Virus record (IMG/VR): IMGVR_UViG_3300027413_000014
Coordinates: 1 to 41,003 of that record
Reading direction: 5' to 3' (one strand)
Source of the DNA: a virus
Length of the DNA: 41,003 nt
Each line of letters starts with the position of its first letter. Within the stretch, counting starts at the first letter, position 1. The notes beneath the pieces were generated by a model that was not told the DNA's origin, made no database searches, and was given only the letters and a program-made list of their open reading frames with translations. Made by a program: the position numbers and the translations under genes. Positions 130 to 41,003 of the stretch are shown piece after piece.

Positions 130-166
130 TATGAAATCCTTACTAGTATATTATATTGTATAGTCT

Positions 167-2469: not shown

Positions 2470-2493
2470 TTCTGTTTCTCCTGATTATATATC

Positions 2494-2910: not shown

Positions 2911-2936
2911 TCTCGTTTCTCCTGATTATGCATATT

Positions 2937-3224: not shown

Positions 3225-3232
3225 ATTACCTC

Positions 3233-4504: not shown

Positions 4505-6177
4505 TATGAAATCCTCACAAATAAACTGCCAGATACGTTTGCGTTACTTGCAGTGGTACCTTGATTATAATAGCCTATGTTTCCCATAAGGCGCCAAGTT
4601 CCTGATAAAGTAGAAGTACTAGATCCACTCCAGCCACTTCCACCGGCATAAGTATTAGCAGTAGCAATTGAACTTCCTGAGAAAGTAGCACCTCCATTGT
4701 GAATGCCAAGTCCGGTATAGAACCCCAAACAATAAGTTCCAATGGCATTAAAGGTTGTACTACTTGATGCAGATGTAAATGTAAATCCAGCACTACCATC
4801 CGTTGTTAGTACTTGTCCGCTTGTTCCATCAGTAATACTTAGGTCAGTTAATACCGACGGTGCATCTGTAATTCCGTAGCCAGCTAAAGTAGTTGGAGTA
4901 CTTGTTAAATCTGAGAATGCTACATTAGCGACTACGCCAGTAACTTGTACCCAATTTGATGCATCATTACTATAAATAAACAGTTCTCCAGTTGCGCTGT
5001 CATCAAACCAAAAAGTACCATTTAAAGGTGCAGCTGGAGGCGTGGCGTCTATTGTTGAAAAAGAAGTGATTGATCCAGTAACTTGTATCCAATTTGACGC
5101 GCTGTCACTATAAATGAACAGTTCTCCGTCTGTTACATCATCAAACCAAAAAGTACCATCTAAAGGCGCAGTTGGAGGTGTTCCACTTATAGCTGAAAAA
5201 GAAGTAATCGACCCTGTGACCTGTATCCAATTTGATGCACTATCACTATATACAAACATTTCGCCAGATGTCACATCGTCAAACCAAGCATGACCGTTTG
5301 AAGGTGAAGTTGGAGCTGTTCCACCTAATCTCACAGACCCGACTAACGATGGATCAACTGTTATTACTCCGGCATTAGTCATCGTAACATCGCCTGATAA
5401 TGTTGCAGCCGTAAATCCTGCTCCGTTATTAATTAAAATTTGAGTATCTGTTAAAGTTTTTGCTGATATATCTCCAGCTGCAGCTCCGTCTCTAACTAGA
5501 ATTGAATTGGCGCCTGCATCTTGAATTTTAGCATATGTAACATTATCATCTAGAATTTTAACAGTAGTAATAGCGTCATCTGCAATCATTCCAGTTTGCA
5601 CTTGAGTTTCTGTTATAATTCCATTTGCGGTTGAACTTCCAAGCACTCTGTTTGCAGTTACAATGTCTTGCATTTTATCATAAGTTACAACATCAGATTC
5701 AATCGTAACAGCACCAGTATTTGTCATAGTAACATCGCCTGATAATGATGCTGCAGTAAATCCTGCTCCGTTATTAATTAAAATTTCAGTATCTGTTAAA
5801 ACTTTATCTGACAAAACTCCATCTGTTCCTGCATCTCTAACTTTAATTGTATTAGCTGGCATAGATCCTAACATAGCATTTTCTAATGCTCCAGAGCTTA
5901 TACTTAAACCATTTGCATCTTGAGTTAATCCGTTTCCAGCTAAAACAGTAAATGCGCCTGAAGAATCTCCGCTAGTTGATTTGCTTATTCCAAGACCTGC
6001 TGTGTATTGTCTTCTATTATAAAATGCCCAATTTATAGCTTCTACGAAATCAGAATCATGATTGGTAAATTCAGTAGACAATAAGTCTAAATCACCTATC
6101 AAACTACTAAGAGCATTTGTCTTTATTCTCCAAGTGTTAATAGTGTCACTTAAGTTTACAGTTATGCGTCTAGCCAT
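4504..6177 (-). CDS. Large tail fibre protein with internal repeats
   Basis: The 557-residue protein is the first gene of the minus-strand late operon. Its N-terminus (MARRITVNLSDTINTWRIKTN) differs from the other fibre genes and may be the attachment domain. The middle has two copies of a module containing LINNGAGFTAA followed by LSGDVTMTN, and then three tandem 46-residue units built on FWFDD ... LFIYS ... SNWIQVTG. After the shared AFSDLTSTPTTLAGYGIT linker, the C-terminal tip ends SGTWRLM ... LFVRIS, like the collar protein at 1321-2469. A TATAAATA promoter lies just upstream on this strand. Confidence 0.8.
   Translation of the reverse strand: MARRITVNLSDTINTWRIKTNALSSLIGDLDLLSTEFTNHDSDFVEAINWAFYNRRQYTAGLGISKSTSGDSSGAFTVLAGNGLTQDANGLSISSGALENAMLGSMPANTIKVRDAGTDGVLSDKVLTDTEILINNGAGFTAASLSGDVTMTNTGAVTIESDVVTYDKMQDIVTANRVLGSSTANGIITETQVQTGMIADDAITTVKILDDNVTYAKIQDAGANSILVRDGAAAGDISAKTLTDTQILINNGAGFTAATLSGDVTMTNAGVITVDPSLVGSVRLGGTAPTSPSNGHAWFDDVTSGEMFVYSDSASNWIQVTGSITSFSAISGTPPTAPLDGTFWFDDVTDGELFIYSDSASNWIQVTGSITSFSTIDATPPAAPLNGTFWFDDSATGELFIYSNDASNWVQVTGVVANVAFSDLTSTPTTLAGYGITDAPSVLTDLSITDGTSGQVLTTDGSAGFTFTSASSSTTFNAIGTYCLGFYTGLGIHNGGATFSGSSIATANTYAGGSGWSGSSTSTLSGTWRLMGNIGYYNQGTTASNANVSGSLFVRIS
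4940..5330. repeat. Three tandem imperfect 138-bp repeats inside fibre gene
   Basis: Units begin at 4940, 5078 and 5216, an exact 138-bp (46-codon) period. Each starts with a variant of GTAACTTGTACCCAATTTGA. The third copy is incomplete at its far end. A related single unit appears in the gene at 3233-4504. In-frame periodicity means copy number can change fibre length without disrupting the frame. Confidence 0.85.
5369..5805. repeat. Pair of ~90-bp direct repeats in fibre gene
   Basis: Segments at about 5369-5460 and 5713-5805 are near-identical over stretches such as CATCGCCTGATAATG and CCTGCTCCGTTATTAATTAA. They encode the two LINNGAGFTAA / LSGDVTMTN modules of the large fibre protein. 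Spacing between copies is about 344 bp. Confidence 0.75.
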
Positions 6178-6219
6178 TAAAATTACACCATTACTTAATT
6201 TGATATTATATTATACATG

Positions 6220-18024: not shown

Positions 18025-20616
18025 TTGAATAATTTTTACACATCAGTTAATCGGTATGGTAATACTATTTTATATAGAGGCTATACTGAAAACGGTACTC
18101 GAATAGAAGACCGAATTAAATTTGGTCCAACACAATATTTGCCATCGAAAGAACCTACAAAATTCCGTTCTTTCGATGGCGGCTATTTAAATGCTATTAA
18201 ATTTCAAAAAATGAGTGAGTCAAAAGATTTTCTTGAAACTTATAAAGAAATGGAAGGCGTTAAAGTATATGGCACCCGAAATTATATCCAACAATTTATT
18301 ACAGATAAATTTCCAACTGATATAAAATTTAATCAAAATCATATCAATATAGTTAATTTTGATATTGAAGTTGCATCAGACGATGGATTTCCTGTTCCAG
18401 AAGAAGCTGCATATCCTATTATATCAATTGCTCTTAAATCTAGTAAATCTTCCATCTATGAAGTTTGGGGATTAAACGATTATGATCCAGCAAAAACAGA
18501 ATTAGAAATGAATGGTGATCTAATCAAGTATCATAAATTTGATACTGAAAAAGCTATGTTAGCTTCATTTTTACATTATTGGGTAAACAATTATCCAGAT
18601 GTTATTACAGGTTGGCATATTCGTTTCTTTGATATTCCTTATCTTGTAAATCGTATCAAAAATATTGGTACTGAAGAAGCAGCCAATAAACTTTCTCCAT
18701 GGAAGCTGGTTAATGATAGACAAATAACTAAGATGGGCCGCACTCAATATAGTTATGAATTAGTTGGTATTCAAACCGCAGACTATATTGAATTATTCAA
18801 AAAGTTTGGTTATTCATACGGCGCTCAAGAATCTTATAAGCTTGACCATATTGCTTATACAGTTCTCAATGAAAAAAAATTATCTTATGAAGAACATGGT
18901 AATCTTCATAGTCTATATAAAGCTGACCATCAAAAGTTTATTGACTATAATATTAAAGATGTTCAACTTGTAGACCGTATTGATCAAAAAATGGGTCTTA
19001 TTAATCTTGGATTGACTATGGCATATAAAGGTGGTGTTAATCTTGGTGATACAATGGGTACAACTTCAATATGGGAATCAATCATTTATCGAAGACTTCT
19101 TAAAAATAATATAATATCACCAATTGAACAGATTAAACCATGTATGTATGCTGTTCATGGAGCTACTGAAACTTCAAAGAAAAACCCAGCTGGTAATTTA
19201 GATCGTACCCGTGAACCACAAAAATCTCACGCAATTGCTGGAGGTTATGTTAAAGATCCACATGTTGGTTCACATGATTGGGTCGTATCATTTGATTTAA
19301 ATTCTCTATATCCAAACATAATTGTTCAATCTAATATATCACCTGAAACTCTTGTAAAAGATAAATCATTTGGTCAATATCCTCAAGGCGTTGATCATTA
19401 TTTTACTGCAGGTGAGGCTGCTTCTAATGAGTATTCTATATGTGCAAGTGGTGTCCCATTTAGTAAAAATAAGCAAGGTATTATTCCTGAACTAATTGTT
19501 GAATATTATGCTGAACGTAGCGTAATTAAACAAAAAATGCTTAAGGTAAAACAAGAGTATGAGCAAACAAAAAATGTAGCTCTTGAGTCAGAAATTAATC
19601 AGCTAGAAAATAATCAAATGTCTATTAAGATTTTACTTAATTCTTTGTATGGCGCAATGGCAAATAAGTATTTTAAATATTTTGATAATGCTCTTGCCGA
19701 AAGTGTAACTCTTACTGGTCAACTTTCAATAAAGTGGGCTGAAAGAGCTATCAATATTGAAATGAATAAAATACTTAAAACTAAAGGAAAAGATTATGTT
19801 ATTGCTATTGACACTGACTCAGTCTATATTAATTTTGGTCCTCTTATTGCTCAACTGGCGCCAAAAGACCCTGTTAAAGCATTGGACAAAATATGTAAGA
19901 CACACTTCGAACCTATAATTGCTAAGTCATATGATGAATTATTTCATAGATTAAATGCTTACACTCCTCGTATGGAAATGGGCAGGGAAGTTATAGCTGA
20001 TCGTGGTATATGGACAGCGAAGAAAAGATATATTCTCAATGTACATAATAACGAGGGTGTACAATATGCTGAACCAAAACTTAAAATTATGGGTATTGAA
20101 GCTATTAAATCAAGTACTCCTGAAGTAGTTCGTGATAAATTTAAAGAAGCATTTAAAATAATTGTTACTGGATCTGAAATTAAAACTCGTAAGTTTATAG
20201 ATAACTTCAGACAAGAATTTAAATCATTATCTCCCGAAAAAGTATCATTTCCTCGTGGAGTGTCAGAAGTTACTAAATGGCAAGATAGAAATTTAATTTA
20301 TAAAAAGGGTACACCAATTCATGTTCGTGGTTCTCTTTTATATAATCACGAAATTAAAGACAAAGCTCTTAATAAAAAATATGATATGATACAAAATGGC
20401 GAAAAGATTAAATTCACTTATCTTAAGATGCCTAATCCTATTAAAGAAAATGTCATATCCTTTCCAGAATACTTACCACCCGAGCTTAATCTTCATAAAT
20501 ATATAAACTATGATATGCAATTTGATAAAACTTTTATTGAACCACTCACACCAATTCTTGACGCTGTTGGTTGGTCGGTTGAAGATAGAGCAACGTTAGA
20601 GGATTTCTTTGGATGA
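18025..20616 (+). CDS. 43: gp43 family-B DNA polymerase
   Basis: The 863-residue protein (T4 is 898) is one uninterrupted frame. Exonuclease motif I is D113-I-E115, polymerase motif A is D424 in [10 protein letters not shown], motif B starts at K535 (KILLNSLYG) and motif C is IDTDS with D596 and D598. The C-terminal LEDFFG is a plausible clamp-binding peptide. The start is TTG at 18025, 6 bases after GGAGG; the nearer ATG at 18020 runs into a stop after two codons. A strong hairpin lies 116 bases into the gene. It overlaps the PEP carboxykinase-like gene by 4 bp. Confidence 0.97.
18141..18180. repeat. 14-bp perfect inverted repeat inside gene 43
   Basis: GCCATCGAAAGAAC (18141-18154) and its exact complement GTTCTTTCGATGGC (18167-18180) flank a 12-base loop. 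It is near 50% G+C in an AT-rich gene. The stem lies close to the 5' end of the mRNA, where it could influence translation or message stability. Confidence 0.85.
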
Positions 20617-21845
20617 CAAATATTAATATTACAACAAGTCCAACAGGACGAAGCCCAGAAAATAAATACTTTTTTGGAGAAAAAACAAAGTGTTTAGACA
20701 AGACTCGACCAAAGTATTATAAAGTTGGAGAAATGGAAGATTTTCTTCAATTTGCAGATTTGATGATGCCTAGGCTAATATCAGAACATATTTATAGAAA
20801 ACCATTATATCTTGAAACATGTAATATCAGATTTAAAATAATTACTAATGATGCGAGACATGAGCAATTTGTTAAGAATATGTTTGATGTATTGCCTGAT
20901 GGGTTTGATCCTCAAGTTTATCCACATAGCGCACATGATTCTGATTGGACGATTTGGCATAACACAGAATTAAAGGTCGATGAACCAAAAATCTATGTAA
21001 ATCTTGATACTAAAACTATGTTAATTGCTGGAACAACATTTTTAGGTGAAATCAAAAAAGGTATATTTGGTATAGTTAGTTTTGAACTACCAAGATATGA
21101 TATTTTACCAATGCATTGTAGTGCCTTTACATATAATGATACAACTAATTTAATGTTTGGATTAAGTGGTACTGGTAAAACTACTCTTAGTAGCGATCCG
21201 GATTATAGATTAATTAGTGATGACGAAGTATCTTGGAATCATGATGGAATTGAAATGATAGAAACTGGTTGTTATGCAAAGAGTGAAGGGTTAACACCAG
21301 AGACACATAAGACTATATTTGATGCAGTAGAAAAAGCAAGATCAGAAGATTGCTTAGTTGTAGAAAATCCAGGTGTACCAAACGCAAGATTAAGTTATCC
21401 TATCACTTGTGTTGAAAACGCGTATCATGAACCTCAACAATTTAATCATCCAACTAATATCTTTTTTCTTACTATGGATGCAAAAGGCGTGTTTCCTCCG
21501 GTATCTAAAATTTCTGGTGAGACTGTACGACGTTTCTTTGAAACTGGATATACGAGCCAAATGCCTGGAACTGAACAAGGAGCAACAGAAATCAAGCCAC
21601 TCTTTAGTCCATGCTATGGCTCACCTTTTATGCCAAGACCGATACATGTTTATAGTGATTTACTAATGAGTAAAATTAATGATAATAAATGCAACGTATA
21701 TTTAATCAATACGGGAATGGATAAAGAAGGCAAGCGATATCCATTGGACTTTACTAGAAATTGTGTCAAGGGAGCTATTAGACGTGGTACTCATGACGAT
21801 AGTGAAAGTGTGTTAAACATTCTAGAAAGCTTAATAAATGATTAA
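20613..21845 (+). CDS. ATP-type phosphoenolpyruvate carboxykinase homologue
   Basis: The 410-residue protein has the whole PckA motif set in order. It has GRSPENK (R13), GEIKKG (K148, K149), MHCSA (H168), the kinase-1a loop GLSGTGKTT at 183-191 and ISDDE (D203, D204) followed by GCYAK. It then has NARLSYPI (R259), [18 protein letters not shown]-like PGTEQG, and DFTR (R382). These correspond to substrate, metal and ATP residues of E. coli PckA (540 residues), which converts oxaloacetate and ATP to PEP, CO2 and ADP. It is shorter at both ends. It overlaps gene 43 by 4 bp and the next gene by 8 bp, so it is co-translated with DNA polymerase. A changed substrate is possible. Confidence 0.88.
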
Positions 21846-22554
21846 TTTTATTTTTGATGTTGATGGAACCCTTACTCCAAGCAGAAGTAAAATGGATGAG
21901 GAGTTTTCAAAGTTTTTCTTTGATTTTTGTTGTTTAAATAAAGTATATTTAGTAACAGGTAGTGATATTCAAAAAACACGAGAGCAGGTTGGAGAAGTCA
22001 TTTGGGGAATGACTAAGCGTAACTATCAATGTTCCGGTAATGACGTATGGGAACGTGGTAAGAATATTCGTACTTCTACTTTAAAGTTACCAGACGAAAT
22101 GTGGGGTTATTTGAATAGAGCTATCAGTGATAGCTCATTTCCAGTTCAAAATGGACAACACATTGAGGAGCGTCCTGGGCTATATAACTTATCTATTCCA
22201 GGAAGAAATATAGGCAATCGTACTCGAATTCAATATGTAGCATATGACAATCATACTAATGAAAGAAATAATATTGCTGCTAAGTTGCAAGACCAATTTC
22301 CGTTGTTTGAATTTAAAGTCGCAGGAGAAACAGGTATAGATATTACTGCTAAAGGAAATAATAAATCACAAATTCTTGATGATTTTGATCCTTTAGATAT
22401 TATCTATTTCTTTGGAGACACGTGCGATAAGGGTGGAAATGATCATGAAATCGCATTAGCTGTACATGATCGTGGAGGAGAAAATAGTACATATCAAGTA
22501 AATAGTTGGGAAGACACCTTTTCTTATTTACAAGCTATTAAAAATGTAGTATAA
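21838..22554 (+). CDS. Eukaryote-type phosphomannomutase-like HAD enzyme
   Basis: The 238-residue protein (human PMM2 is 246) starts with HAD motif I FDVDGTLTPSR (nucleophile D7, general acid D9). It carries VTGSDIQKTREQVG, the cap-domain segment EERPGLYNLSIPGRN, ETGIDITAKGNNKSQIL and motif IV FFGDTCDKGGNDHEIA. This is the PMM1/PMM2 arrangement, not the bacterial ManB fold. It would interconvert mannose- or glucose-6-phosphate and -1-phosphate, feeding sugar-nucleotide synthesis. It overlaps the PEP carboxykinase gene by 8 bp. Confidence 0.85.
   Translation: MINFIFDVDGTLTPSRSKMDEEFSKFFFDFCCLNKVYLVTGSDIQKTREQVGEVIWGMTKRNYQCSGNDVWERGKNIRTSTLKLPDEMWGYLNRAISDSSFPVQNGQHIEERPGLYNLSIPGRNIGNRTRIQYVAYDNHTNERNNIAAKLQDQFPLFEFKVAGETGIDITAKGNNKSQILDDFDPLDIIYFFGDTCDKGGNDHEIALAVHDRGGENSTYQVNSWEDTFSYLQAIKNVV
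22118..22136. repeat. 9+1+9 bp perfect palindrome in PMM-like gene
   Basis: GAGCTATCA and TGATAGCTC flank a single G. Dyad symmetry of this kind is seen in operators and in tight hairpins. It falls within codons for RAISDSS, so it may be incidental. Confidence 0.5.
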
Positions 22555-22555: not shown

Positions 22556-22580
22556 ACTCTATATAATGATGGAGAATATA

Positions 22581-22994
22581 ATGACTAAAGTATGGTTTAA
22601 TGACATCGAGCAAATGCATAAAAAGTTTGGTGTCAACGATTGGTTTGAAGCCAATAAAGATAATAAAGAATTGATGGCAAAATATCTTGCATTTCGTATG
22701 TCAATGATTAAAGAAGAATACGACGAGACTATGGATGCTATCGAAGCAAAAGATGCTGAAGAAGTAGTTGATGGTTTAATTGATATGTGTGTATTTGCTA
22801 TTGGCACTCTTGAAGTATTAGGTGTTAATGGTAATGAAGCATGGACAAAAGTATTCAATGCTAATATGACTAAATCTCCTGGTGTTAAGCCTGGTCGTCC
22901 TAATCCGTTTGGATTACCAGATTTGCTTAAGCCTGAAGGATGGACTGCACCAACTCATAGAGGTAATCATGGAAGTCTCAGCGACATTCTTTAA
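22581..22994 (+). CDS. MazG-superfamily nucleotide pyrophosphohydrolase-like protein
   Basis: The start at 22581 follows GGAG by 6 bases; an upstream in-frame ATG at 22566 contains that site. The 137-residue protein has the all-alpha NTP-PPase pattern EEYDE at 45-49 and EEVVDGLID at 60-68, followed by GVNGNEAWTKVFNANMTK, typical of phage phosphoribosyl-ATP pyrophosphatase-like proteins. It probably hydrolyses a (d)NTP or related nucleotide to the monophosphate. The end overlaps the primase-like gene by 26 bp. Confidence 0.8.
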   Translation: MTKVWFNDIEQMHKKFGVNDWFEANKDNKELMAKYLAFRMSMIKEEYDETMDAIEAKDAEEVVDGLIDMCVFAIGTLEVLGVNGNEAWTKVFNANMTKSPGVKPGRPNPFGLPDLLKPEGWTAPTHRGNHGSLSDIL

Positions 22995-24714: not shown

Positions 24715-25174
24715 AGATATAGATTTGATAGAACTCTTAGCCAAAGCAAAGGCTGAGAGTCAACTTATTTTTGATAAAGAGTCTACTCGTAAAGGTAGAA
24801 CTATTGATGATATTACTGTCACTAATATGTATGGTCTTGCGGCTGAACAGTTTCTTATTGAAAAATGCAATTTCACTGATAATCCTTTACCATATCAGGA
24901 TGTAATATCTCCAGAAGGTATTGATGTTGAGGTAAAAGTAACAAAAGTTTTTAACTATATTCCTAATGTGTTATATCGTTTAAAAGAAAAGCGTAAAAAG
25001 TATCCTAGCTTATACCAGCCTGATTGGGTTATCATATATATAAATGATAAAAAGACTCGGGATTATGTTTTTGCTGGTACATATAAATGGAATGGTAAAA
25101 CATATGTTACTAAAGATTGGTCTTTAGAAATTGATAGAGAATTTCTTGCAAACTATGAAGGAGCAAATAATTGA
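24695..25174 (+). CDS. PD-(D/E)XK nuclease-like protein
   Basis: The 159-residue protein contains GLAAEQFLIEK (E51) and then GIDVEVKVTK, with D77, E79 and K81 spaced as in PD-(D/E)XK nucleases, followed by WVIIYINDKKTRDYVFAGTY. The layout resembles small phage restriction-like or homing-type endonucleases. Target unknown. It overlaps its neighbours by 20 and 4 bp, inside the modification gene run, so attack on unmodified DNA is an attractive but unproven role. Confidence 0.5.
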   Translation: MRSFSLKDIDLIELLAKAKAESQLIFDKESTRKGRTIDDITVTNMYGLAAEQFLIEKCNFTDNPLPYQDVISPEGIDVEVKVTKVFNYIPNVLYRLKEKRKKYPSLYQPDWVIIYINDKKTRDYVFAGTYKWNGKTYVTKDWSLEIDREFLANYEGANN

Positions 25175-25515
25175 AATCTGGAAAAGTCTGGGGAATGACT
25201 GAACTTATTGAAGCTAATGGTACTTTAGAATTTCATCGTATTGAAATGGAAGCTACAGGAGTATGTTCAAAACATCTTCATGAATATAAATGGAATGGTT
25301 TTTATATCGAGTCAGGAATAATGCTTGTACGTGTATGGCAAAATGATTATAATTTAATTGATGAAACTGTTTTACAGGCCGGTGATTATACTAAAGTAAA
25401 ACCTGGTGTTTATCACCAATTCGAATGCATTGAGCCAGGTGTAGCTTTTGAACTGTACTGGGCAGAATTTAACCACAACGATATTATTAGGGAAACAGTA
25501 GGTCATATAGAATGA
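25171..25515 (+). CDS. Cupin-domain protein
   Basis: The 114-residue single-domain cupin has metal ligands H35-x-H37 in CSKHLHEYKWNGFYIESG and H82 in KVKPGVYHQFECIE, matching cupin motifs 1 and 2. Such proteins include sugar-phosphate isomerases or epimerases and sensors. It starts at TTG 25171 with GGAG 6 bases upstream and overlaps the cytidylyltransferase by 4 bp, which favours a step in making an activated sugar or polyol. Confidence 0.75.
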   Translation: MKSGKVWGMTELIEANGTLEFHRIEMEATGVCSKHLHEYKWNGFYIESGIMLVRVWQNDYNLIDETVLQAGDYTKVKPGVYHQFECIEPGVAFELYWAEFNHNDIIRETVGHIE

Positions 25516-25919
25516 AAGTAGGATTTACTTGTAGCACCTTTGACTTGCTTCATGCTGGACATATAATGATGCTCAGAGAAGCTAAATCACAATGTGATTA
25601 TTTAATATGCGGTTTACAAGTAGATCCCACTCTGGATCGTAAAGAAAAGAATGCTCCAATTCAAAACATAGTAGAAAGACAGGCTCAACTTACTGCAATA
25701 AAATATGTCGATGAAGTCATTATTTATTGTACAGAAGCTGATTTGTGTGATATAATAAACATGTATCCAATTAATGTTAGGATACTTGGTGAAGAGTATA
25801 GAAGCAAAGATTTTACTGGTAAGGATGAATGTCGCAATCGCGGTATCGATCTATACTTTAACAAACGTGATCATCGCTTTTCAACTAGCGATCTAAGAAA
25901 GAGAGTATGTGAACAATGA
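25512..25919 (+). CDS. TagD-like cytidylyltransferase (copy 1)
   Basis: The 135-residue protein is of the usual length of CTP:glycerol-3-phosphate cytidylyltransferases. It shows GFTCSTFDLLHAGHI with the nucleotide-binding H14-x-x-H17, YLICGLQVDPT, KYVDEVIIY, and a C-terminal HRFSTSDLRKRV in place of the RTEGIST-type motif. It would couple CTP (or another NTP) with a small phosphorylated alcohol or sugar. It sits directly before dCMP hydroxymethylase with a 4-bp overlap. Confidence 0.85.
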   Translation: MKVGFTCSTFDLLHAGHIMMLREAKSQCDYLICGLQVDPTLDRKEKNAPIQNIVERQAQLTAIKYVDEVIIYCTEADLCDIINMYPINVRILGEEYRSKDFTGKDECRNRGIDLYFNKRDHRFSTSDLRKRVCEQ

Positions 25920-26608
25920 AAATGAATTCTGTAAAAGATGTTCGTCAATTCTTTGTTGATGAACTAAATGATCAAGCATTCACTATTGATAAGACTGGCG
26001 CACGAACTATTGAAATGATTGGTGCTTCATTTATTGCAGATGAAGCATCTATATTCGGTAAACCATCTCACTCTTATATTCGAAAAGAATTGGATTGGTA
26101 CGATAGCCAATCAACTAATATCTTTGATATTAATAAAGAGTCTGGTGAAGATGCTCCTGCAGCTTGGAAATATGCTGCTAATACGCATGGTGAAATTAAT
26201 TCAAACTATGGTCATCTGATCTATGCTAATAAATATTTTGATCAATATCAAAATGCATTATCTGAATTAGATAAAAATCCTGATGGTAGACGTGCTTCTA
26301 TGATCTACAATCGGCCTTCTATTTGGGTGGAGTTTAACGAAAATGGAAAATCTGATTTCATTTGTACTAACGCTGTCACTTACTATATTCGTGATAATTT
26401 ACTTCATTGTGTAGTCCAAATGCGGTCTAATGATGTAGTGTTTGGTTATAAGAATGATTATGCTTGGCAACGACATGTACAAAATAAATTAGTAGAAGAT
26501 TTAAATAATATCCGTTTTAGTGTTAGAGATCCGGTTAGTACTGGCATGATGATATGGCAAGTACAAAATCTTCACGTATATGAAAGGCATTTTAATCTTG
26601 TCACATAA
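25916..26608 (+). CDS. 42: gp42 dCMP hydroxymethylase
   Basis: The 230-residue protein is a clear T4 gp42 homologue (246 residues): IDKTGARTIEMIGASFIADE, HGEINSNYG, GRRASMIYNRPS, the catalytic cysteine C150 in DFICTNAV, and MRSNDVVFGYKNDYAWQ. It converts dCMP plus methylene-tetrahydrofolate to 5-hydroxymethyl-dCMP, so this phage very likely has hydroxymethylcytosine DNA. The thymidylate-synthase fold is complete, although the C-terminus is slightly short. The deaminase gene overlaps its end by 29 bp. Confidence 0.95.
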   Translation: MKMNSVKDVRQFFVDELNDQAFTIDKTGARTIEMIGASFIADEASIFGKPSHSYIRKELDWYDSQSTNIFDINKESGEDAPAAWKYAANTHGEINSNYGHLIYANKYFDQYQNALSELDKNPDGRRASMIYNRPSIWVEFNENGKSDFICTNAVTYYIRDNLLHCVVQMRSNDVVFGYKNDYAWQRHVQNKLVEDLNNIRFSVRDPVSTGMMIWQVQNLHVYERHFNLVT

Positions 26609-27059
26609 TACTGATCGTCAACATAAATGGGATCTAAGATATTTAGAGCTGGCTAAAACTATTGCTGGATGGTCTAAGGATCCTTCAAGTCAGATTGGAG
26701 CTATAGCTGTAGGTTCAAAAGGACAAGTCCTAGCTCAAGGATATAATGGATTCCCACGTGGGATGATGGATAGTCAACATCTTTACATTAATAAAACAGA
26801 AAAATATGCTCGAATAATACATGCTGAAATGAATATGATCTTTAATGCATCATTTAATGGTGTGTGTCTTAATGGTTCAAGTGTATATGTTTCTGGATTA
26901 CCAACTTGTTCTGATTGCGCAAAAGGTCTTATTCAAGTTGGTGTAAAGGAATTAATCATGCCTAGAGAAAAAATTGAAGATCGTTGGTATGACTCATGGC
27001 AACGGTCAAAAGAATATTACAAAGAGGCTGGTCTTAAATATAGATGGGTCGTGCGGTAA
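26580..27059 (+). CDS. cd: dCMP deaminase
   Basis: The 159-residue zinc deaminase has H81-A-E83 and PTCSDC with C110 and C113. Flanking segments are typical of phage dCMP deaminases (LELAKTIAGWSKDPSSQIGAI and GYNGFPRGMMD). It produces dUMP for thymidylate synthesis by ThyX (35679-36350) while gp42 uses the remaining dCMP. The ATG at 26580 overlaps gene 42; a TTG at 26598 is an alternative start. Confidence 0.92.
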   Translation: MKGILILSHNTDRQHKWDLRYLELAKTIAGWSKDPSSQIGAIAVGSKGQVLAQGYNGFPRGMMDSQHLYINKTEKYARIIHAEMNMIFNASFNGVCLNGSSVYVSGLPTCSDCAKGLIQVGVKELIMPREKIEDRWYDSWQRSKEYYKEAGLKYRWVVR

Positions 27060-27096: not shown

Positions 27097-27155
27097 ATAA
27101 TCATTAAAACTGTTATAACTATAACGTGAGCTACACTGAAATAAAGGAAGTAAAA

Positions 27156-28580
27156 ATGAAAGTTGCTTTTATCTTTGGAAAAGGTATTGAAGGATGCGGT
27201 GTTACCAAAGGCGCTAACATATTCGAATCTTGGTTAGTATCTCAAGGGCATGAAACAATCGTAATTGATTTTGATAATAAACAACACTTTGGCCGCGCTA
27301 AAGATACTGAATGGAAAAGCACTATTCATCGAGTTGAATCCAATCATGAAATTAAAGATACCCAACCAGTAATTGATGAAGTAAACACTTGCGATATTGC
27401 AATCATACATTCATTCCCAACTCGCAAAAATGGAAAGTACATTGATCGTTTCCGTGAATTTGTTGAGCATATCAGTGATCCCATTATTGTAATACATGAC
27501 CATGCTATTACGAAGCAAACTATCAATAGACAAACCCAAGCTGCTGAATTATTTTCTTTAGCAGACATTGGTGTTACACAGTCGTTTGAAGGTTATTCTA
27601 ACGATTGTTATCTACACACTGATCCAGGCCTTGAAGGTTGTCTTATGGAGAATCCAATATGGGTTAATACTAGTGAATATGATAAACACCGTGCCTCGCT
27701 TGAAGACCGTAAGAAACACTTTATATACATGGGCCGCATGTCAACACTTAAAGATCCAGGTATGATCTGCCGTATTGAACCATATTTAAAGAATGATTGG
27801 GATTTAACTTTGATGGGATGTGAACGTTCAATATCATCTATTGGAATTCCAGAATCTAAAACTCTTGCCACTGATCCAGCACCTTACCATAAATCATATC
27901 AACCAAAGATTAAATTTATTGGCACAAATTCTGCAGGCGAACACTATGAACCAGCTAAAGAAAAAGAAAAGACTGGTACCACGATTACAGCATATGATAG
28001 TTACAAATATGATTTTGGAATGAATCAACTTGGTAGTTCTATGGCAGCTTGGTGTGGATATCGTCTAGGTAATCCAAAAGAGTATGGCCATCGTATGGAA
28101 TATACTGTAATTGAATCATTTCTTTTATCTCTTCCTGTCATTAGTAAACATTTTGCTGAAAACGCTGTATCACCTGAAGGTAAAAAATGGGGTGAATATT
28201 ATGGTCCACTTATATCTAAAGCAACATGTGAAGAAGAGCTAGCAGCAGAATTAAATAGGATCTATAATAATAAAGAAGAATGGATTGCTCGTACAAAAGC
28301 TTGTCAAGAGTTGGTCTATAATTTTAATGATATTGAAGTACTTGGTCCTAAGTTTTTAGATTTTGTGTTGACAAAAGGAAAAAGACGTAATAAAATAGAA
28401 TTTATAGATAGGATTTCAAGTTATTTTCCAAGCGCAAAGCAAAGACGTGAAGATGGTGAGATTATTGTATCAACACCAGGAAGTGTATTAAATGAAAAAG
28501 CGTATACATTGGTAGATGGAAAACAAAATGAAATCAAAGAACCAAAAGATGTTGGTGCAACACTTGAAGGATTTTTCTAA
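27156..28580 (+). CDS. DNA glycosyltransferase, T4 alpha-glucosyltransferase-like
   Basis: I use the ATG at 27156 after AAGGAAG (474 residues); a GTG at 27126 would add ten. The N-terminus KVAFIFGKGIEGCGVTKGA parallels T4 Agt (ARGLEGCGVTKFS). It is followed by a Rossmann domain with CDIAIIHS and VIHDHAITKQ, where T4 has CDILIINS and YQHDHSVL. The second half has the GT-B acceptor/donor features YMGRMSTLKDPG, GYRLG and EYTVIESF. It is longer than Agt (400) at the C-terminus. It lies between 42 and uvsX, where T4 keeps its beta-glucosyltransferase. Donor sugar unknown. Confidence 0.82.
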   Translation: MKVAFIFGKGIEGCGVTKGANIFESWLVSQGHETIVIDFDNKQHFGRAKDTEWKSTIHRVESNHEIKDTQPVIDEVNTCDIAIIHSFPTRKNGKYIDRFREFVEHISDPIIVIHDHAITKQTINRQTQAAELFSLADIGVTQSFEGYSNDCYLHTDPGLEGCLMENPIWVNTSEYDKHRASLEDRKKHFIYMGRMSTLKDPGMICRIEPYLKNDWDLTLMGCERSISSIGIPESKTLATDPAPYHKSYQPKIKFIGTNSAGEHYEPAKEKEKTGTTITAYDSYKYDFGMNQLGSSMAAWCGYRLGNPKEYGHRMEYTVIESFLLSLPVISKHFAENAVSPEGKKWGEYYGPLISKATCEEELAAELNRIYNNKEEWIARTKACQELVYNFNDIEVLGPKFLDFVLTKGKRRNKIEFIDRISSYFPSAKQRREDGEIIVSTPGSVLNEKAYTLVDGKQNEIKEPKDVGATLEGFF

Positions 28581-29605
28581 TGTACCATAAACGCATAGTT
28601 GTCGACTTTGACGATACTTTAGCTTTCCATCAAAACCGTAAATTCGATGAAGCACTACCAAACAAACCTCTTATTGAAAAGCTAAATAAGCTACATTCTG
28701 AGGATTGGCAAATTGACATCTTTACTGCTCGTGGTTCTATATCATGCAAAACCCGTGAAGATGCTCGTAAGAAATATGAAAAGAGCATGCTTAATTGGCT
28801 TGATAAAAATAATGTAAAGTTTAATATTCTCTCATTTGATAAGCCTTTAGCAGCTTATTATATTGATGATAAAGGTATTATGCCTGAAGATTTTCTTGAA
28901 ATTAATATTCGTGAACTCGAGGGTGGATTATCTGGCGGTGAAATCTATACCGATGGTAAAGTAGTACATAAGCAAGATAGCAATGCACATCAAACACGTG
29001 ATTGGTTTGATAACGCTAAAAAGATCGGCATTAAAACACCTAGTATTCATCGAGTTGTTGGTGAAACTATTACTATGGATTATATTAATCACGACGAAAA
29101 CTTCTTTTCAAATAATTTTTGGATGGCTTTAGCCACAGTTCAAACACAATTAGATAAAATGAAATCATTAAAAGCAGTTGACAATTTAAAGTTTAGTGAT
29201 TATATTGAGCGTATTGAAGAACATGCTAAAAATTCTAGTAAAACAAAATTAATTGAAGTGGCTTCAAGCTTAAAGCAGTATGAGATAAAACGTGGTTATT
29301 CTCATGGTGACTTTGGGATTAAAAATATGCTATTCAATAATTGTGATATGCATTTAATTGATCCAATCTGTGGAATATTTGGATCTACTGAATTGGATGC
29401 TGCAAAGTTTTGTGCAAGCTTACTTATTAATCTATACCCGATTGGATTGTTTAAGCAATCTTTAAATTATCTGGCTCTAGCTAACGATATAAATAAAAAT
29501 ATGCTGGTATCATTAGTGGCGGCAGAAGTGACTAGGGTGTACAAATACCATCCTAACAAATATTTTATTATGGAGTGTATTGATAATGTTTACAAACAAA
29601 GCTGA
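28580..29605 (+). CDS. HAD phosphatase - APH/choline-kinase-like fusion
   Basis: The 341-residue two-domain protein has residues 1-115 of a short HAD hydrolase (DFDDTLAF with D9 and D11, FTARGS, YYIDDKG), like capsule-locus phosphatases. Residues ~125-341 have the aminoglycoside/choline-kinase catalytic loop H242-G-D244-x4-N249 and metal D261 in LIDPICG. Such an enzyme could phosphorylate and dephosphorylate intermediates before nucleotidyl activation. It is joined to the glycosyltransferase by a TAATG overlap and to the next cytidylyltransferase by overlap. Confidence 0.72.
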   Translation: MYHKRIVVDFDDTLAFHQNRKFDEALPNKPLIEKLNKLHSEDWQIDIFTARGSISCKTREDARKKYEKSMLNWLDKNNVKFNILSFDKPLAAYYIDDKGIMPEDFLEINIRELEGGLSGGEIYTDGKVVHKQDSNAHQTRDWFDNAKKIGIKTPSIHRVVGETITMDYINHDENFFSNNFWMALATVQTQLDKMKSLKAVDNLKFSDYIERIEEHAKNSSKTKLIEVASSLKQYEIKRGYSHGDFGIKNMLFNNCDMHLIDPICGIFGSTELDAAKFCASLLINLYPIGLFKQSLNYLALANDINKNMLVSLVAAEVTRVYKYHPNKYFIMECIDNVYKQS

Positions 29606-30050
29606 GATAGCAAGAAAAGTTGGCAAGCCTATTGAAGAAGTAAAAATTGGTTTTACCTGTTCTACTTTTGATTTATTACATGCCGGTCATATTGTAATGC
29701 TACAAGAAGCTAAAGAGCTTTGTGATTATCTCATTTGTGGTCTACTAACTGATCCTACAGTTGACCGCCCTGATTCAAAAAATAAACCAATTCAAACTCC
29801 ATTTGAGCGCTATGTTCAATTGGCAGGTTGTCGTTTTGTTGATGAAGTCATTCCATTTAGTACAGAACAAGAAATCGTCGATATGATTTTAACTATTCAG
29901 CCACATGTTAGGATCGTTGGTGAAGAATATAAAGGCACAGATCATACTGGTATTGGATTATGTTCTATTCACTACAACAAACGTAAGCACTCGTTTTCAT
30001 CTACAGATTTAAGAAATCGTGTAGTAGAAGCAGTACAGGGAAAAAAATAA
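29586..30050 (+). CDS. TagD-like cytidylyltransferase (copy 2)
   Basis: I prefer the ATG at 29586 (154 residues; GGAG 10 bases upstream) over TTG 29580. The core GFTCSTFDLLHAGHI (H32, H35), YLICGLLTDPT, FVDEVIPF, VRIVGEEYKG and KHSFSSTDLRNRV is close to copy 1 at 25512-25919. An extra ~20-residue N-terminal helix distinguishes it. Two paralogues imply either two activated substrates or a heteromeric enzyme. It ends directly against the next ATG. Confidence 0.83.
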   Translation: MFTNKAEIARKVGKPIEEVKIGFTCSTFDLLHAGHIVMLQEAKELCDYLICGLLTDPTVDRPDSKNKPIQTPFERYVQLAGCRFVDEVIPFSTEQEIVDMILTIQPHVRIVGEEYKGTDHTGIGLCSIHYNKRKHSFSSTDLRNRVVEAVQGKK

Positions 30051-31253
30051 ATGATTTACAGACACGCGTCTATTGTACCACTTATTGGTGGTGAAACAAT
30101 CGCTCAAGAAAATGTTTTTGGAACAAGACCCGAATATATTTTAAGCTATTCCGCATTTGAAGCTAACGACAGACAATTAGTCGAATATTATAATAATAAA
30201 GTGCCTTATCATCATTTAGATGGTGATACTCATTATAGCATACCCACTGTTGACGTTATCAATACAGTTTGCCCATGCGCTGGATTATCAAGTCTTAGCC
30301 CATCTGCATCGTCTACTAATGCTAATAATGACTGGATGGTAAATACTGCTCGGCATGTTTTAAGTACACTAAAACCTAAAGTATTTTGGGGTGAAAACGC
30401 CCCGCGATTAGCTAGTAAAATGGGTGCGCCGATTGTTGAGCAGTTAAAAAGAATTGCTAGTCAAAACGGATATACATTTAGCATTTACAAAACAAAATCT
30501 ATACTTCATGGACTAAGCCAAGTACGAGATCGTACTTTTTATTTTTTCTGGCAAGGTGATAAAATACCTATGTTAAGTTATATTGAACGCAAACATGAAA
30601 AAATTGAAGATACTATTCGTAATGTAGATCTACATGAAGATGACCCTATGAATATAATTGTTAATAAAAAAATTCCAAGTGAAAATCCATTTTATAAATA
30701 TGTACTTGAAGAACTTAATAATGGTATTTGTCATTCTGAATTTCAAGATAAAATTGTAAAGAGTACTAATCCACTTGATGAAATTGAAAAATCTGGAATT
30801 AAATACGATAAAGTACACGAGTGGATGAAAGAAAAAGGATTTGAAAATGAAGCTGGTAAATGTAATCGTATGTACCACAAACTAAAAAGTGGCGGTAATA
30901 TTATGCGTAAGACTACCGAAATACCTAAAGATTATATTGGTGCGTTTGTAGGACATATGCCAGGATATCTTACTCATCCAGATGAAGATCGCTATTTGAC
31001 TATTCGAGAATGTCTTTCTATTATGAAACTTCCAGGTGATTTTATGTTACAGGGCGGAGTAAAAAATCTTAATATGATTTGTCAAAATGTTCCTGTAACT
31101 ACAGCACAAGATATGGCTGAACAAGTTCAATCTTTTGTACATGGTAGACTTGATAATCAAATGATTGATGCCAAATTTGCTATTCAGTGTAATAAAAAAC
31201 AAACTATAAATTATGAAAAAGTAAGTAACACATTAGAGGAATTTATATGTTAA
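30051..31253 (+). CDS. Cytosine-C5 DNA methyltransferase homologue
   Basis: The 400-residue protein has C5-methyltransferase motifs in order: a motif I-like N-terminus (VPLIGGETIAQENVF), motif IV CPCAGLSS with the probable catalytic C76, motif VI E115-N-A, motif VIII Q157-V-R159-D-R161, RECLSIMKLPGDF and motif X CQNVPVTTAQDMA. The target-recognition region is about residues 170-310. In a hydroxymethylcytosine phage ordinary methylation of C5 is blocked, so a specialised or altered reaction is likely. It overlaps the dehydrogenase gene by 7 bp. Confidence 0.75.
   Translation: MIYRHASIVPLIGGETIAQENVFGTRPEYILSYSAFEANDRQLVEYYNNKVPYHHLDGDTHYSIPTVDVINTVCPCAGLSSLSPSASSTNANNDWMVNTARHVLSTLKPKVFWGENAPRLASKMGAPIVEQLKRIASQNGYTFSIYKTKSILHGLSQVRDRTFYFFWQGDKIPMLSYIERKHEKIEDTIRNVDLHEDDPMNIIVNKKIPSENPFYKYVLEELNNGICHSEFQDKIVKSTNPLDEIEKSGIKYDKVHEWMKEKGFENEAGKCNRMYHKLKSGGNIMRKTTEIPKDYIGAFVGHMPGYLTHPDEDRYLTIRECLSIMKLPGDFMLQGGVKNLNMICQNVPVTTAQDMAEQVQSFVHGRLDNQMIDAKFAIQCNKKQTINYEKVSNTLEEFIC
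30520..30548 (+). other. Terminator-like hairpin and T-tract inside methyltransferase gene
   Basis: AAGTACGA and TCGTACTT are exact complements around GA, followed by TTTATTTTTTC. It overlaps the codons for the conserved QVRDRTFYFF motif, so protein constraint may explain it. As RNA it resembles an intrinsic terminator. Confidence 0.35.
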
Positions 31254-32065
31254 AATTAAAAATATCTATTATTGGTTGTGGATTTGTAGGCAAAGCTATT
31301 ATTAATGGTTTTGATGAAACCCTATGTGACATAACTCCAATTGATATTAAATATGATACTACAGTAGAAGATACTAATCCATATGATGATATTTTTTTCG
31401 TATGTTTACCAACACCTATGAATGATGATGGATCGGTTAATGCTGAACTAGTAATTGAAACTGTCAAATGGTTAAAGCTTAATAGAGCTGGCCATATTGT
31501 AATAAAATCAACAGTCACACCTGATATTATAGACAAACTTTCTGATGATAGAGTAGTTTATAATCCTGAATTTTTAAATGAAAAATCTGCAGATGAAGAT
31601 TTTATTAATCCACCAATGCATATATTTGGCGGGCATATCAAAGACACAAATAATATTGAGAAAATATATAAAAAATATAGTAAATGTAAACCTTGCCCAA
31701 GCCACCATGTGACATTAAAAGAAGCAAGTTTTATTAAATATGGAATTAATTGTTTTCTTGCTACAAAAGTATTATGGTTTAATCAATTCTATGATATAAT
31801 ACAAAAACATGATTGTAATTTTGATGAGATTACTTATGCAATGCGATCAGATCCAAGGATTGGTAACTCTCATACGAGTGTTCCAGGATTTGATGGCAAA
31901 ATGGGTTTTGGTGGAGCTTGTTTTCCAAAAGACACTTCAGCATTTTTAGATTTTGCGATATCGTTTTCTTTATTGGATGAAGTAATTAAATCAAATAATA
32001 AAATTAGATCTAAATATACAAAAGATAAAAGGGAGCTTGAACAAAATATCTCATTTAACAAATAA
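31247..32065 (+). CDS. Short UDP-glucose/UDP-sugar 6-dehydrogenase-like protein
   Basis: The 272-residue protein has a Rossmann NAD site (ISIIGCGFVGKA), VCLPTPMNDDGS, KSTVTPD, YNPEFLNEKSADEDF, K164 in SFIKYGINCF and the catalytic cysteine C225 in GFGGACFPKD. Typical UDP-glucose dehydrogenases are ~390-450 residues; the C-terminal UDP-binding domain is mostly missing. Oxidation of a nucleotide sugar to a uronate is the expected reaction. Arabinosylating T4-like phages carry related genes, which favours a DNA-sugar role. Confidence 0.82.
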   Translation: MLKLKISIIGCGFVGKAIINGFDETLCDITPIDIKYDTTVEDTNPYDDIFFVCLPTPMNDDGSVNAELVIETVKWLKLNRAGHIVIKSTVTPDIIDKLSDDRVVYNPEFLNEKSADEDFINPPMHIFGGHIKDTNNIEKIYKKYSKCKPCPSHHVTLKEASFIKYGINCFLATKVLWFNQFYDIIQKHDCNFDEITYAMRSDPRIGNSHTSVPGFDGKMGFGGACFPKDTSAFLDFAISFSLLDEVIKSNNKIRSKYTKDKRELEQNISFNK

Positions 32066-32123: not shown

Positions 32124-33179
32124 ATGGCATCCATTATGGATAAACTCAAAAATAATTCTAAACTTAAAGCAACGGAAATTCTTTCTGAGTCTAAATTTTT
32201 TAATATAAAAAAACTTATTGCTACTGATGTACCAATGGTTAATGTTGCTTTATCTGGTTCAATTGACGGTGGTATGTCACCTGGCCTTACTGTGTTAGCA
32301 GGCCCATCTAAACATTTTAAAACTTCTTTTGCGCTGTTGATGGCTGGTGCATATTTGCGAGAAAAGAAAGATGCTGTCATGTTGTTTTATGATAGTGAGT
32401 TTGGTTCACCTCAATCATACTTTGAGCAATTTGGTATTGATACATCACGAGTTCTTCACACACCAATTACAAACGTAGAAGAACTTAAATTTGATCTCGT
32501 CAACCAACTTGAAGGCCTTGATGCTAAAGATGATGTTATCATTGTTATTGATTCGATTGGTAACCTTGCATCAAAGAAAGAACTTGAAGATGCTCAAAAC
32601 GAAAAATCTGTAGCAGATATGTCAAGAGCCAAACAACTTAAATCATTGTTTCGTATGACTACTCCATATCTAGCTATGAAAAATATTATCATGTTAGCGG
32701 TCAATCACACATATCAAGAAATCGGATTGTTTCCAAAAGCAATAGTTTCTGGTGGTACTGGTATCTATTATAGTGCTAATAATATTTGGATTCTTGGTCG
32801 TAGGCAAAATAAAACTGGAACTGAAGTTACGGGTTATGATTTTGTTATTAATGTTGAAAAGTCTAGATTTGTAAAAGAAAAGTCTAAAATTCCTATTTCA
32901 GTATCATGGGAAGGTGGTGTTGAAACATATTCTGGTCTATTGGATGTTGCCATGGCGGGTGGCTATGTAGTTAAACCATCTAATGGTTGGTATGCATCGG
33001 TTAATATGGACACTGGCGAAATTTCTGATAAAAAGGTTAGACAATCTGGTACTCTTGAAAAAGAATTTTGGGATCCTATTTTTGCTAATACTAACTTTAA
33101 AGAATTTGTAAAAAATCAATTTACAATTGGATATAAATCAGAAATTGATATGGATGAAATTTTAGAAATGGAATCATAA
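32124..33179 (+). CDS. uvsX: UvsX RecA-like recombinase
   Basis: The 351-residue protein (T4 is 391) has Walker A GPSKHFKT at 60-67 (T4 GPSKSFKS), Walker B VIIVIDSIGNLASK and the loop region VNHTYQEIGLFPKAIVSGG. It forms presynaptic filaments with UvsY and drives recombination-dependent replication. The ATP loop has H where many relatives have S or G. It ends in a TAATG overlap with the next gene. Confidence 0.95.
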   Translation: MASIMDKLKNNSKLKATEILSESKFFNIKKLIATDVPMVNVALSGSIDGGMSPGLTVLAGPSKHFKTSFALLMAGAYLREKKDAVMLFYDSEFGSPQSYFEQFGIDTSRVLHTPITNVEELKFDLVNQLEGLDAKDDVIIVIDSIGNLASKKELEDAQNEKSVADMSRAKQLKSLFRMTTPYLAMKNIIMLAVNHTYQEIGLFPKAIVSGGTGIYYSANNIWILGRRQNKTGTEVTGYDFVINVEKSRFVKEKSKIPISVSWEGGVETYSGLLDVAMAGGYVVKPSNGWYASVNMDTGEISDKKVRQSGTLEKEFWDPIFANTNFKEFVKNQFTIGYKSEIDMDEILEMES

Positions 33180-39316: not shown

Positions 39317-41003
39317 ATGGCAGTCAATTTTCCAGATAGCCCGAGTAATGGAGATACACATGTAGTTGGTGCACTAACATATACCTATACAGCATCTACT
39401 GATGTATGGGATGCTTCAGGTGTAACATCAGCTGCTATTCAAATTTCTGATACAGCACCTTCGAATCCATCAGATGGCGAATTGTGGCATAACTCCTCAG
39501 ATTTAAAATTATACATTTATTATAACGATGGATCGTCAAGTCAATGGGTCGTTGCTTCGCCTCAACAAATAGGTCCAACTGGAGCGGCAGGTCAAGTCCA
39601 TATGGGAATTGCTTCGCCATCAGCGCCAGCCTCTGGCGAAATGTGGTATGACACTGAAACAAACGATTTTAGTCTGTATTACCAAGACGGAACTTCTAAT
39701 CAGTGGATAACAGTTTCTGGACCAAAAGGTGACGATGGTGCTGACGCAACATTATCGTCTATTAGCGAAAGTATCATACCAGATACTGATAGCGCATACG
39801 ATCTTGGATCGCCCACAAATAAATTTAGATCACTTTATCTTAGCTCGAATACTTTATTTTTAGGAGATTCTGGTTCTATTTCAGCCGGTCCAGGAGGTGA
39901 AATAGTTTTACCTTCTATTAAGATTGGAACTGGTGCTAATGCAGTTAAGTTAGAAGCCGACGCATCTGGTAAACTTAAAACTAAAAAAATTATTAGCGGT
40001 GTAACACAAGCTGCTGAAGAACCAGGCAATGCTACGGTAGTTACAGATATGGCTGGATTGATTGCATTAACTGGTATGAGTACTGGTCAGATTGCATTAG
40101 TAAGTGCATTGAATAAAATGTTTGTTTATACTGGTACTGGTTGGTTTCTAATTGCTACAGTTACTAATTCATCGCCAACTGATATTACTGGTGTTAATGC
40201 AACGTATTCATTAGCAACAGATGGAACCGCAACCACAATCACCGCTGTATCCACCGACCCAGAAGGATTTCCTCTTACATGGTCCTATGCAGTCACAACG
40301 GGTTCTTTGGGTAGTACAGCAACGGTTTCGCAGGCAGATAATGTATTTACTATCACTCCGTCTACGACAGAGGCAGATGCCGGGACTTTCAGTATAACAT
40401 TTAGTGTGACAGATGGAGCAACTGGAGCTGTTCAGACAGTGAGTGCATTTACATTGGCATTTCGGAACGACAGTAGTATTCTATTTACCAGTGACGGCAC
40501 AATTAGTACTCACTATAATGCAGGCACCCCTACGCAACATGATTGGGTTGTTCCTACTGACGTAACCAGTATATGTGCCGTTGTTATTGGTTCTGGTGCT
40601 GGATCAACAACAGCCGATTATAGTGGTTGGGCTGGTTCTGGCGGAGGCGGTGGGGCTCTTTCATATGTCAATAACATTGCAGTTACGCCGGGCGAAACTC
40701 TTACTGTATTAGTCGGAGTTGCGTCTGGTGTTGTTTCAAGTGGTCGGGGTGCTGGTGGTTGTATAAGTGCTTTGAGAAGAGGAGGTACGGATTTATGTTC
40801 TGTAACATCTTCTCAGGGCGGAAGAGAAAGCAGCGCTATCGCTGCGGGAACTTCATACAAATCTTGGGGTGGAAACGTAGTAGTTGGCACAGGCGGTGAT
40901 GGCGGCGATGGAGGTTGGTCTACAGCGGGCAGTGATGGTTGCGGCGGCGGTGGTGCCGGTGGGTATTCTGGCGATGGAGGCACAGGCCAAGGAGATATTA
41001 GCG
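39317..41003 (+). CDS. Partial tail fibre / adhesin protein
   Basis: The frame is open from the ATG at 39317 to the window edge (562 codons visible). The N-terminus MAVNFPDSPSNGDTHVVGALTYTY resembles the short module starting the minus-strand fibre genes. Next come collagen-like stretches (GPTGAAGQ, GPKGDDGAD), a DTDSAYDLGSPTNKFRSLYLS segment, and a beta-rich Ig/cadherin-like domain (NATYSLATDGTATTITAVS). Glycine-rich blocks at the end (GSGGGGGALS, GCGGGGAGG) suggest a receptor-binding tip. It is driven by a late promoter. Confidence 0.8.
   Translation, partial: MAVNFPDSPSNGDTHVVGALTYTYTASTDVWDASGVTSAAIQISDTAPSNPSDGELWHNSSDLKLYIYYNDGSSSQWVVASPQQIGPTGAAGQVHMGIASPSAPASGEMWYDTETNDFSLYYQDGTSNQWITVSGPKGDDGADATLSSISESIIPDTDSAYDLGSPTNKFRSLYLSSNTLFLGDSGSISAGPGGEIVLPSIKIGTGANAVKLEADASGKLKTKKIISGVTQAAEEPGNATVVTDMAGLIALTGMSTGQIALVSALNKMFVYTGTGWFLIATVTNSSPTDITGVNATYSLATDGTATTITAVSTDPEGFPLTWSYAVTTGSLGSTATVSQADNVFTITPSTTEADAGTFSITFSVTDGATGAVQTVSAFTLAFRNDSSILFTSDGTISTHYNAGTPTQHDWVVPTDVTSICAVVIGSGAGSTTADYSGWAGSGGGGGALSYVNNIAVTPGETLTVLVGVASGVVSSGRGAGGCISALRRGGTDLCSVTSSQGGRESSAIAAGTSYKSWGGNVVVGTGGDGGDGGWSTAGSDGCGGGGAGGYSGDGGTGQGDIS

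Follow-up and report, generated by a model that had tools for sequence, protein, structure and literature searches.

A C5-cytosine-methyltransferase-fold protein with a rebuilt cofactor side in phage hydroxymethylcytosine cassettes

What can a homologue of the cytosine C5-methyltransferases do in a phage whose own dCMP hydroxymethylase (gp42) would already have placed a hydroxymethyl group at C5? The question is raised by an open reading frame of a 41 kb virus record (the window, i.e., the whole stretch of 41,003 nucleotides analysed here), for which a first-pass annotation had left three options: the enzyme might act on host DNA, it might act on cytosines that stay unsubstituted, or it might carry out another C5 reaction with hydroxymethylcytosine as its substrate. 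The window is T4-like, encoding gp43, gp44, gp45, gp46, gp47, gp55, UvsW, UvsX, and gp41, and the gene lies among the following neighbors:

22566..22994, + strand: MazG-like nucleotide pyrophosphohydrolase, a recurrent upstream neighbor and possibly a dCTPase
25512..25919, + strand: second cytidylyltransferase-like protein
25916..26608, + strand: dCMP hydroxymethylase (gp42), with T4 Cys148 and Asp179 conserved
26580..27059, + strand: dCMP deaminase
27126..28580, + strand: alpha-glucosyltransferase-like protein (AGT)
28580..29605, + strand: HAD phosphatase domain with a C-terminal part that appears kinase/phosphotransferase-like (sugar metabolism)
29586..30050, + strand: cytidylyltransferase-like protein, nucleotide-sugar synthesis
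30051..31253, + strand: C5-cytosine-methyltransferase-fold protein with its cofactor side rebuilt, 400 aa, ATG start
31247..32065, + strand: UDP-glucose/GDP-mannose dehydrogenase-like protein, short
32124..33179, + strand: UvsX recombinase, bordering the hypermodification region on its right

The assignment of gp42, on which the question depends, is borne out by a match to the T4 dCMP hydroxymethylase at 4.9e-68, with Cys148 (in FICTN) and Asp179 (in KNDYAW) aligned to their T4 counterparts. A separate ThyX gene at 35679 can supply dTMP, leaving the TS-family gene at 25916 free to act as hydroxymethylase. In T4-like phages, the region from DNA polymerase to UvsX is a known plastic site for the decoration of hydroxymethylcytosine, and the T4 beta-glucosyltransferase and RB69 arabinosylation modules occupy this same slot; those modules consist of glycosyltransferases and sugar-nucleotide genes, whereas 30051-31253 has a C5-methyltransferase fold (PMC6024577, PMC8056088). 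The two cytidylyltransferase paralogues (25512-25919 and 29586-30050) both belong to phrog_7878, one preceding the hydroxymethylase and the other directly preceding 30051-31253. The window further encodes a small cupin annotated as cysteine-dioxygenase-like (25171-25515), an ATP-type phosphoenolpyruvate carboxykinase beside the DNA polymerase (20613-21842; PF01293, E 6.8e-92), which is an unusual phage metabolic gene, and a eukaryotic-type phosphomannomutase homologue (21838-22554; PF03332, E 3.3e-23) that is likely involved in sugar-nucleotide supply. Its left end lies on the minus strand and carries a tail-fibre-like gene (phrog_9729), and positions 1-6200 and 40000-41003 have a G+C content of 0.39-0.47, compared to about 0.32 elsewhere.

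The protein encoded at 30051-31253 is indeed a C5-cytosine methyltransferase homologue, as the annotation had proposed: it matches the Pfam profile PF00145 (E 8.4e-19, 68.6 bits against a cut-off of 22), its AlphaFold model (pLDDT 90) superposes on HhaI with a Z of about 23, and Foldseek and VIA group this model with HhaI, HaeIII, DNMT1, and CmoX. The gene is under purifying selection, with a dN/dS of about 0.065 against relatives of 94-95% identity (range 0.064-0.153). A chance or spurious open reading frame is ruled out by the profile match, the fold match, and this selection. The motifs fall as follows:

30078..30092, + strand: motif I position, P10-L-I-G-G14 in place of F-x-G-x-G; P10, L11, G13, and G14 invariant in the family
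30273..30290, + strand: motif IV, P75-C76-A77-G-L-S80; C76 is the predicted nucleophile and A77 stands in place of HhaI Gln82
30393..30404, + strand: motif VI, E115-N-A-P118 (ENV in ordinary enzymes)
30519..30533, + strand: motif VIII, Q157-V-R159-D-R161
30561..30962, + strand: target-recognition region (about residues 171-304), unusually conserved across the family
31080..31094, + strand: motif X, C344-Q345-N346-V347-P348 in place of G-N-[S/A]-V-x

All four motifs named by the first-pass annotation (IV, VI, VIII, and X) are thus present, but three of them are non-standard (PCA rather than PCQ in IV, ENA rather than ENV in VI, and CQNVP rather than GN[S/A]VP in X), and motif I, which it had not listed, reads PLIGG. 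The catalytic cysteine that it considered likely corresponds to C76 of motif IV (P75-C76), which is invariant in all 147 full-length members of the family alignment. The same holds for E115, N116, Q157, R159, and R161, so that the residues for base attack (HhaI Cys81, Glu119, Asn120, Arg163, and Arg165, plus the Gln) are evidently under selection. The full set of invariant or near-invariant positions comprises P10, L11, G13, G14, F36, P75, C76, A77, G78, L79, S80, E115, N116, A117, and P118, together with H153, G154, Q157, R159, R161, Q345, N346, V347, and P348.

The cofactor side was compared with that of 80 control loci, i.e., viral loci retrieved with aligned sequences of ordinary phage C5-methyltransferases, using HhaI numbering. 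The controls retain both the base side (Glu119, Asn120, and the pair Arg163 and Arg165, each in 80/80) and the donor side (Gly20 in 78/78, Gln82 in 78/80, Val121 in 80/80, and Asn304 in 68/72). In the family, Gly20 is replaced by Leu (146/146, with motif I reading PL[IV]GG in every one), Gln82 by Ala or Ser (147/147), Val121 by Ala or Ser throughout, and Asn304 by Gln (147/147), the Gly303-Asn304 pair becoming [CA]-Gln. MAFFT and hhalign agree on the placement of motif I, as do MAFFT, hhalign, and hmmsearch (against HaeIII) on that of motif X. Compared to M.HhaI and other PF00145 enzymes, the family therefore shares the overall fold, the catalytic Cys, Glu-Asn, QxRxR, and the motif order from I to X, and differs from M.HhaI in Gly20 to Leu, Phe18 to Val/Ile, Gln82 to Ala, Val121 to Ala, motif X GN to CQ, and a C-terminal extension of about 35 residues; it also has no clearly conserved ribose-binding Glu, although the alignment is ambiguous there. 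Indeed, the motif II segment showed an apparent loss of this residue (HhaI Glu40) in the first alignment, whereas hhalign places a Glu elsewhere, and D40 might stand in for it. The position of the adenine-contacting HhaI Asp60 is Asp in about 70% of the family, and two glycines of motif I are retained; the altered motifs are no proof that SAM binding is lost. Gln82 and Asn304 line the transfer channel of HhaI, and both have been shortened by chemists in order to open the donor channel (PMC10666283). With a mean identity of 51%, the recognition region is better conserved in the family than in controls comparable in catalytic identity (22%), a sign that the target may be a common one or the specificity low.

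Pattern scans, with tblastn as confirmation, recovered 53 viral relatives of the window protein and 14 of the S-TIM5 type, and with the alignment as query there were at least 552 viral relatives among the 599 pattern matches listed. Among cultured phages, only Pseudoalteromonas phage XG4, the S-TIM cyanophages, and, weakly, Bacillus phage G were matched. Hits also occurred in 11 MAG or assembly contigs, of which eight carry gp42 and the remaining three are short; these contigs thus look like phage, and a cellular restriction-modification enzyme is ruled out. A plain T4-core gene is likewise ruled out, since the family reappears, in other gene orders, in S-TIM5, XG4, and phage G. We found no prior description of the family in the literature searched, in which most subscription papers were missing.

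The pairing with dCMP hydroxymethylase is nearly constant. A TS-family gene is present in 46 of the 47 family loci whose upstream DNA extends 6.5 kb or more (the lone exception, L082, is a 14 kb fragment), and it is of the Asp type wherever the motif is readable. A home-made TS profile was positive in 77 of 155 family loci, many of which are incomplete, and again all were of the Asp type; this count leaves out the hydroxymethylase of phage G, the gene lying beyond the locus DNA covered. None of the 80 control loci had a TS-family gene within the stretches covered (up to 10 kb on each side), a contrast that is partly phylogeny, as the controls are unmatched for phage clade. The pairing is itself partly shared ancestry within one T4-like clade, and only about four independent groups, not closely related, support it. 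The independent cases weigh more than the control contrast: S-TIM5-type phages have a ThyA-like hydroxymethylase of a different type (VPLDMF) in a different gene order; XG4 has gp42 about 5 kb upstream of its family gene; and phage G encodes, within about 15 kb, an Asp-type TS homologue (gp319), a dCMP deaminase (gp317), the family relative gp301, and two alpha-glucosyltransferase-like proteins, gp306 and gp313 (PMC6024577). Conversely, about 930 cultured phage records have gp42-like genes without the family protein, which is thus dispensable for hydroxymethylcytosine as such.

The position of TS Asn177 distinguishes dCMP from dUMP enzymes, and in a metagenome selection, homologues with Asp there were overrepresented among contigs with modified cytosine (PMC8670742). 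Three genes of cultured phages annotated as thymidylate synthase have Asp at this position, namely those of S-TIM5 (L057:11772-12608), S-TIM54 (L055:12120-12962), and phage G (gp319; L267:17449-18495). Judged by this residue, they are probably dCMP hydroxymethylases, and these cultured phages may therefore contain hydroxymethylcytosine derivatives. The T4 gp1-type dNMP kinase (PF21448) was not found in the complete genomes of XG4, S-TIM54, and phage G or in six long contigs (G001-G006), despite their Asp-type hydroxymethylases, and there was no obvious dNMP kinase among the larger P-loop open reading frames of XG4. Phage G gp315, near the hydroxymethylase, gave a weak thymidylate-kinase-like match.

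The surrounding cassettes vary in their decorating genes. Among 59 cassette loci, the family protein was found in 58, the hydroxymethylase in 54, and the deaminase in 55; the loci were chosen for the family protein and gp42 together, so that the counts for those two are not independent evidence, whereas the variation of the other genes is. Variants include an alpha-glucosyltransferase with an NAD epimerase and a UDP-glucose dehydrogenase; a TET-associated glycosyltransferase; a myo-inositol-phosphate synthase with a HAD-like protein and a 5-hmdU DNA kinase helical-domain protein (L074, L075, L076, L107, L148, L149, and L153), possibly serving a novel hypermodification of hydroxymethylcytosine; and a threonine-dehydratase-like gene with proteins of no assigned function (L025, L026, L028, and L152). 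A constant core with variable decorating genes is more in keeping with a function linked to hydroxymethylcytosine itself than with one confined to a particular decoration. Adjoining the dCMP deaminase in about 19 loci is a 125-aa uracil-DNA-glycosylase-superfamily-like protein (L133:1414-1788 and homologues).

Phage G gp301 is the closest viral fold to the window model, by about nine orders of E-value. It has PCSGLS, ENAP, and AQGVP, has lost Gly20, and lies in a cassette with an Asp-type TS homologue, a dCMP deaminase, and alpha-glucosyltransferases; the same four positions are changed (Gly20, Gln82, Val121, and Asn304 being Phe, Ser, Ala, and Gln), although identity in the structural alignment is only about 19%, motif VIII is M-R-R-M-R, and motif I is FGGS. 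None of the sources found describes its activity.

Could the protein nonetheless be an ordinary SAM-dependent C5-methyltransferase with a divergent donor site, directed at unsubstituted phage cytosines or host DNA? The intact fold and target-base residues and the two retained motif I glycines favor this reading, as does the occurrence of ordinary C5-methyltransferases in T4-like phages without gp42 (PMC8056088). Klebsiella phage PMBT1 and Citrobacter phage Margaery are such T4-like phages with an HhaI-like enzyme; theirs, however, have the ordinary motifs LCAGVGG, PCQ, ENV, and GNSV, and the genomes carry an Asn-type thymidylate synthase instead of a hydroxymethylase. We regard ordinary methylation as unlikely, since Gly20, Gln82, Val121, and Asn304 are nearly fixed in the 80 controls and absent from the family, changes at Asn304 and Gln82 alter methylation in engineered enzymes (PMC10666283), and a near-obligate partner takes away the substrate. 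A transfer from another sulfonium donor is suggested by CmoX, the DNA cytosine C5-carboxymethyltransferase of Synechococcus phage S-B43 (PDB 8YF3), which is likewise a phage C5-methyltransferase homologue in a hypermodification cassette, is one of the best structural matches and, at 21%, the one of highest identity among those listed, and is changed, like the family, at the donor-channel positions Gln82 and Asn304. CmoX, however, keeps Phe25, Glu47, Phe48, and Asp69 for the adenosyl part of its cofactor and needs Arg350 for the carboxylate of Cx-SAM (PMC12783734), whereas the family appears to lack conserved adenosyl contacts and has Gln345 at the Arg350 position (equivalent to Asn304) in 147/147; this last difference rules out membership of the CmoX group. 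CmoX also travels with CmoA rather than with dCMP hydroxymethylase, and no TS-family gene was found in S-B43. No CmoA-like (Cx-SAM synthase) gene was recognized among the window open reading frames scanned. A donor of this type, e.g., carboxymethyl from Cx-SAM, is accordingly given a low probability, below that of ordinary methylation.

A host-directed weapon that attacks unmodified host cytosine, by covalent trapping or deamination, while hydroxymethylcytosine shields the phage DNA (comparable to those T4 proteins whose action is confined to cytosine DNA) would account for the gp42 pairing, the conserved recognition region, and the donor-site loss, and the base-attack residues are intact. It is improbable, if marginally less so than a sulfonium-donor transferase, given that the gene is not grouped with host-takeover genes but is flanked by gp42 and UvsX inside the hypermodification cassette, and that the smaller side chains replacing Gln82 and Val121 may indicate a C5-substituted base. 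Least probable of all is a catalytically idle, base-flipping reader of hydroxymethylcytosine that guides other cassette enzymes; the degenerated donor side and the co-occurrence with many different decorating enzymes would suit it, but invariance of the catalytic Cys, Glu, and both Arg in 147/147 is unexpected in a reader.

Of the three options left by the annotation, the near-constant gp42 pairing and the replaced pocket positions favor a function in the hydroxymethylcytosine pathway with an altered donor site, although the protein may act on residual or host cytosine. In ordinary C5-methyltransferases, the Cys adds to C6 and the Glu acts at N3, whereupon C5 turns nucleophilic; bacterial C5-methyltransferases are also reported to add formaldehyde to C and to couple thiols to 5hmC. 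With 5hmC, an ordinary C5-methyltransferase becomes covalently linked, and dehydroxymethylation is reported to proceed in the absence of SAM (PMC11347137); for DNMT3A/3B this is cited in PMC12326847. The family keeps the residues that these reactions need while those for SAM methylation are altered, which favors hydroxymethyl-level C5 chemistry on DNA. The fold, the target-base machinery, the conserved recognition region, the rebuilt cofactor side, and the near-obligate gp42 pairing, all supported by sequence and model, point to an enzyme that acts on DNA within the hydroxymethylcytosine pathway and has given up ordinary SAM methylation, a proposal to which we assign an even balance of belief. 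More tentative is its specific form, in which a C5-methyltransferase fold that has abandoned SAM would now handle the hydroxymethyl group on DNA cytosines, by adding, removing, or replacing it, and would be a permanent cassette component beside dCMP hydroxymethylase, dCMP deaminase, and the decorating transferases.

Such an enzyme would flip 5hmC or leftover C out of the DNA, Cys76 would add to C6 with assistance from Glu115 at N3, and the ensuing chemistry at C5 would involve the hydroxymethyl group. In order of preference, the hydroxymethyl group could be transferred onto cytosines that escaped the nucleotide-level pathway, it could be removed as formaldehyde at chosen sites, or its hydroxyl could be replaced via an exocyclic methylene intermediate. 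No one of these is rated above unlikely: transfer leaves the constant retention of gp42 unexplained, removal clashes with a low-specificity enzyme, and replacement fits poorly with cassettes that glycosylate the hydroxyl.

Ordinary C5-methyltransferases can act on or remove the hydroxymethyl group of 5hmC in vitro, and this family is a concrete candidate for an evolved enzyme of that kind. Its members number in the hundreds, largely in phage sequences of marine origin, and occur in three groups of cultured phages (phage G, XG4, and S-TIM5). An enzyme active on 5hmC in DNA would be a useful tool to edit or label this base. If the proposal is true, the hydroxymethylcytosine biology of phages has a step that is absent from the T4 textbook scheme.
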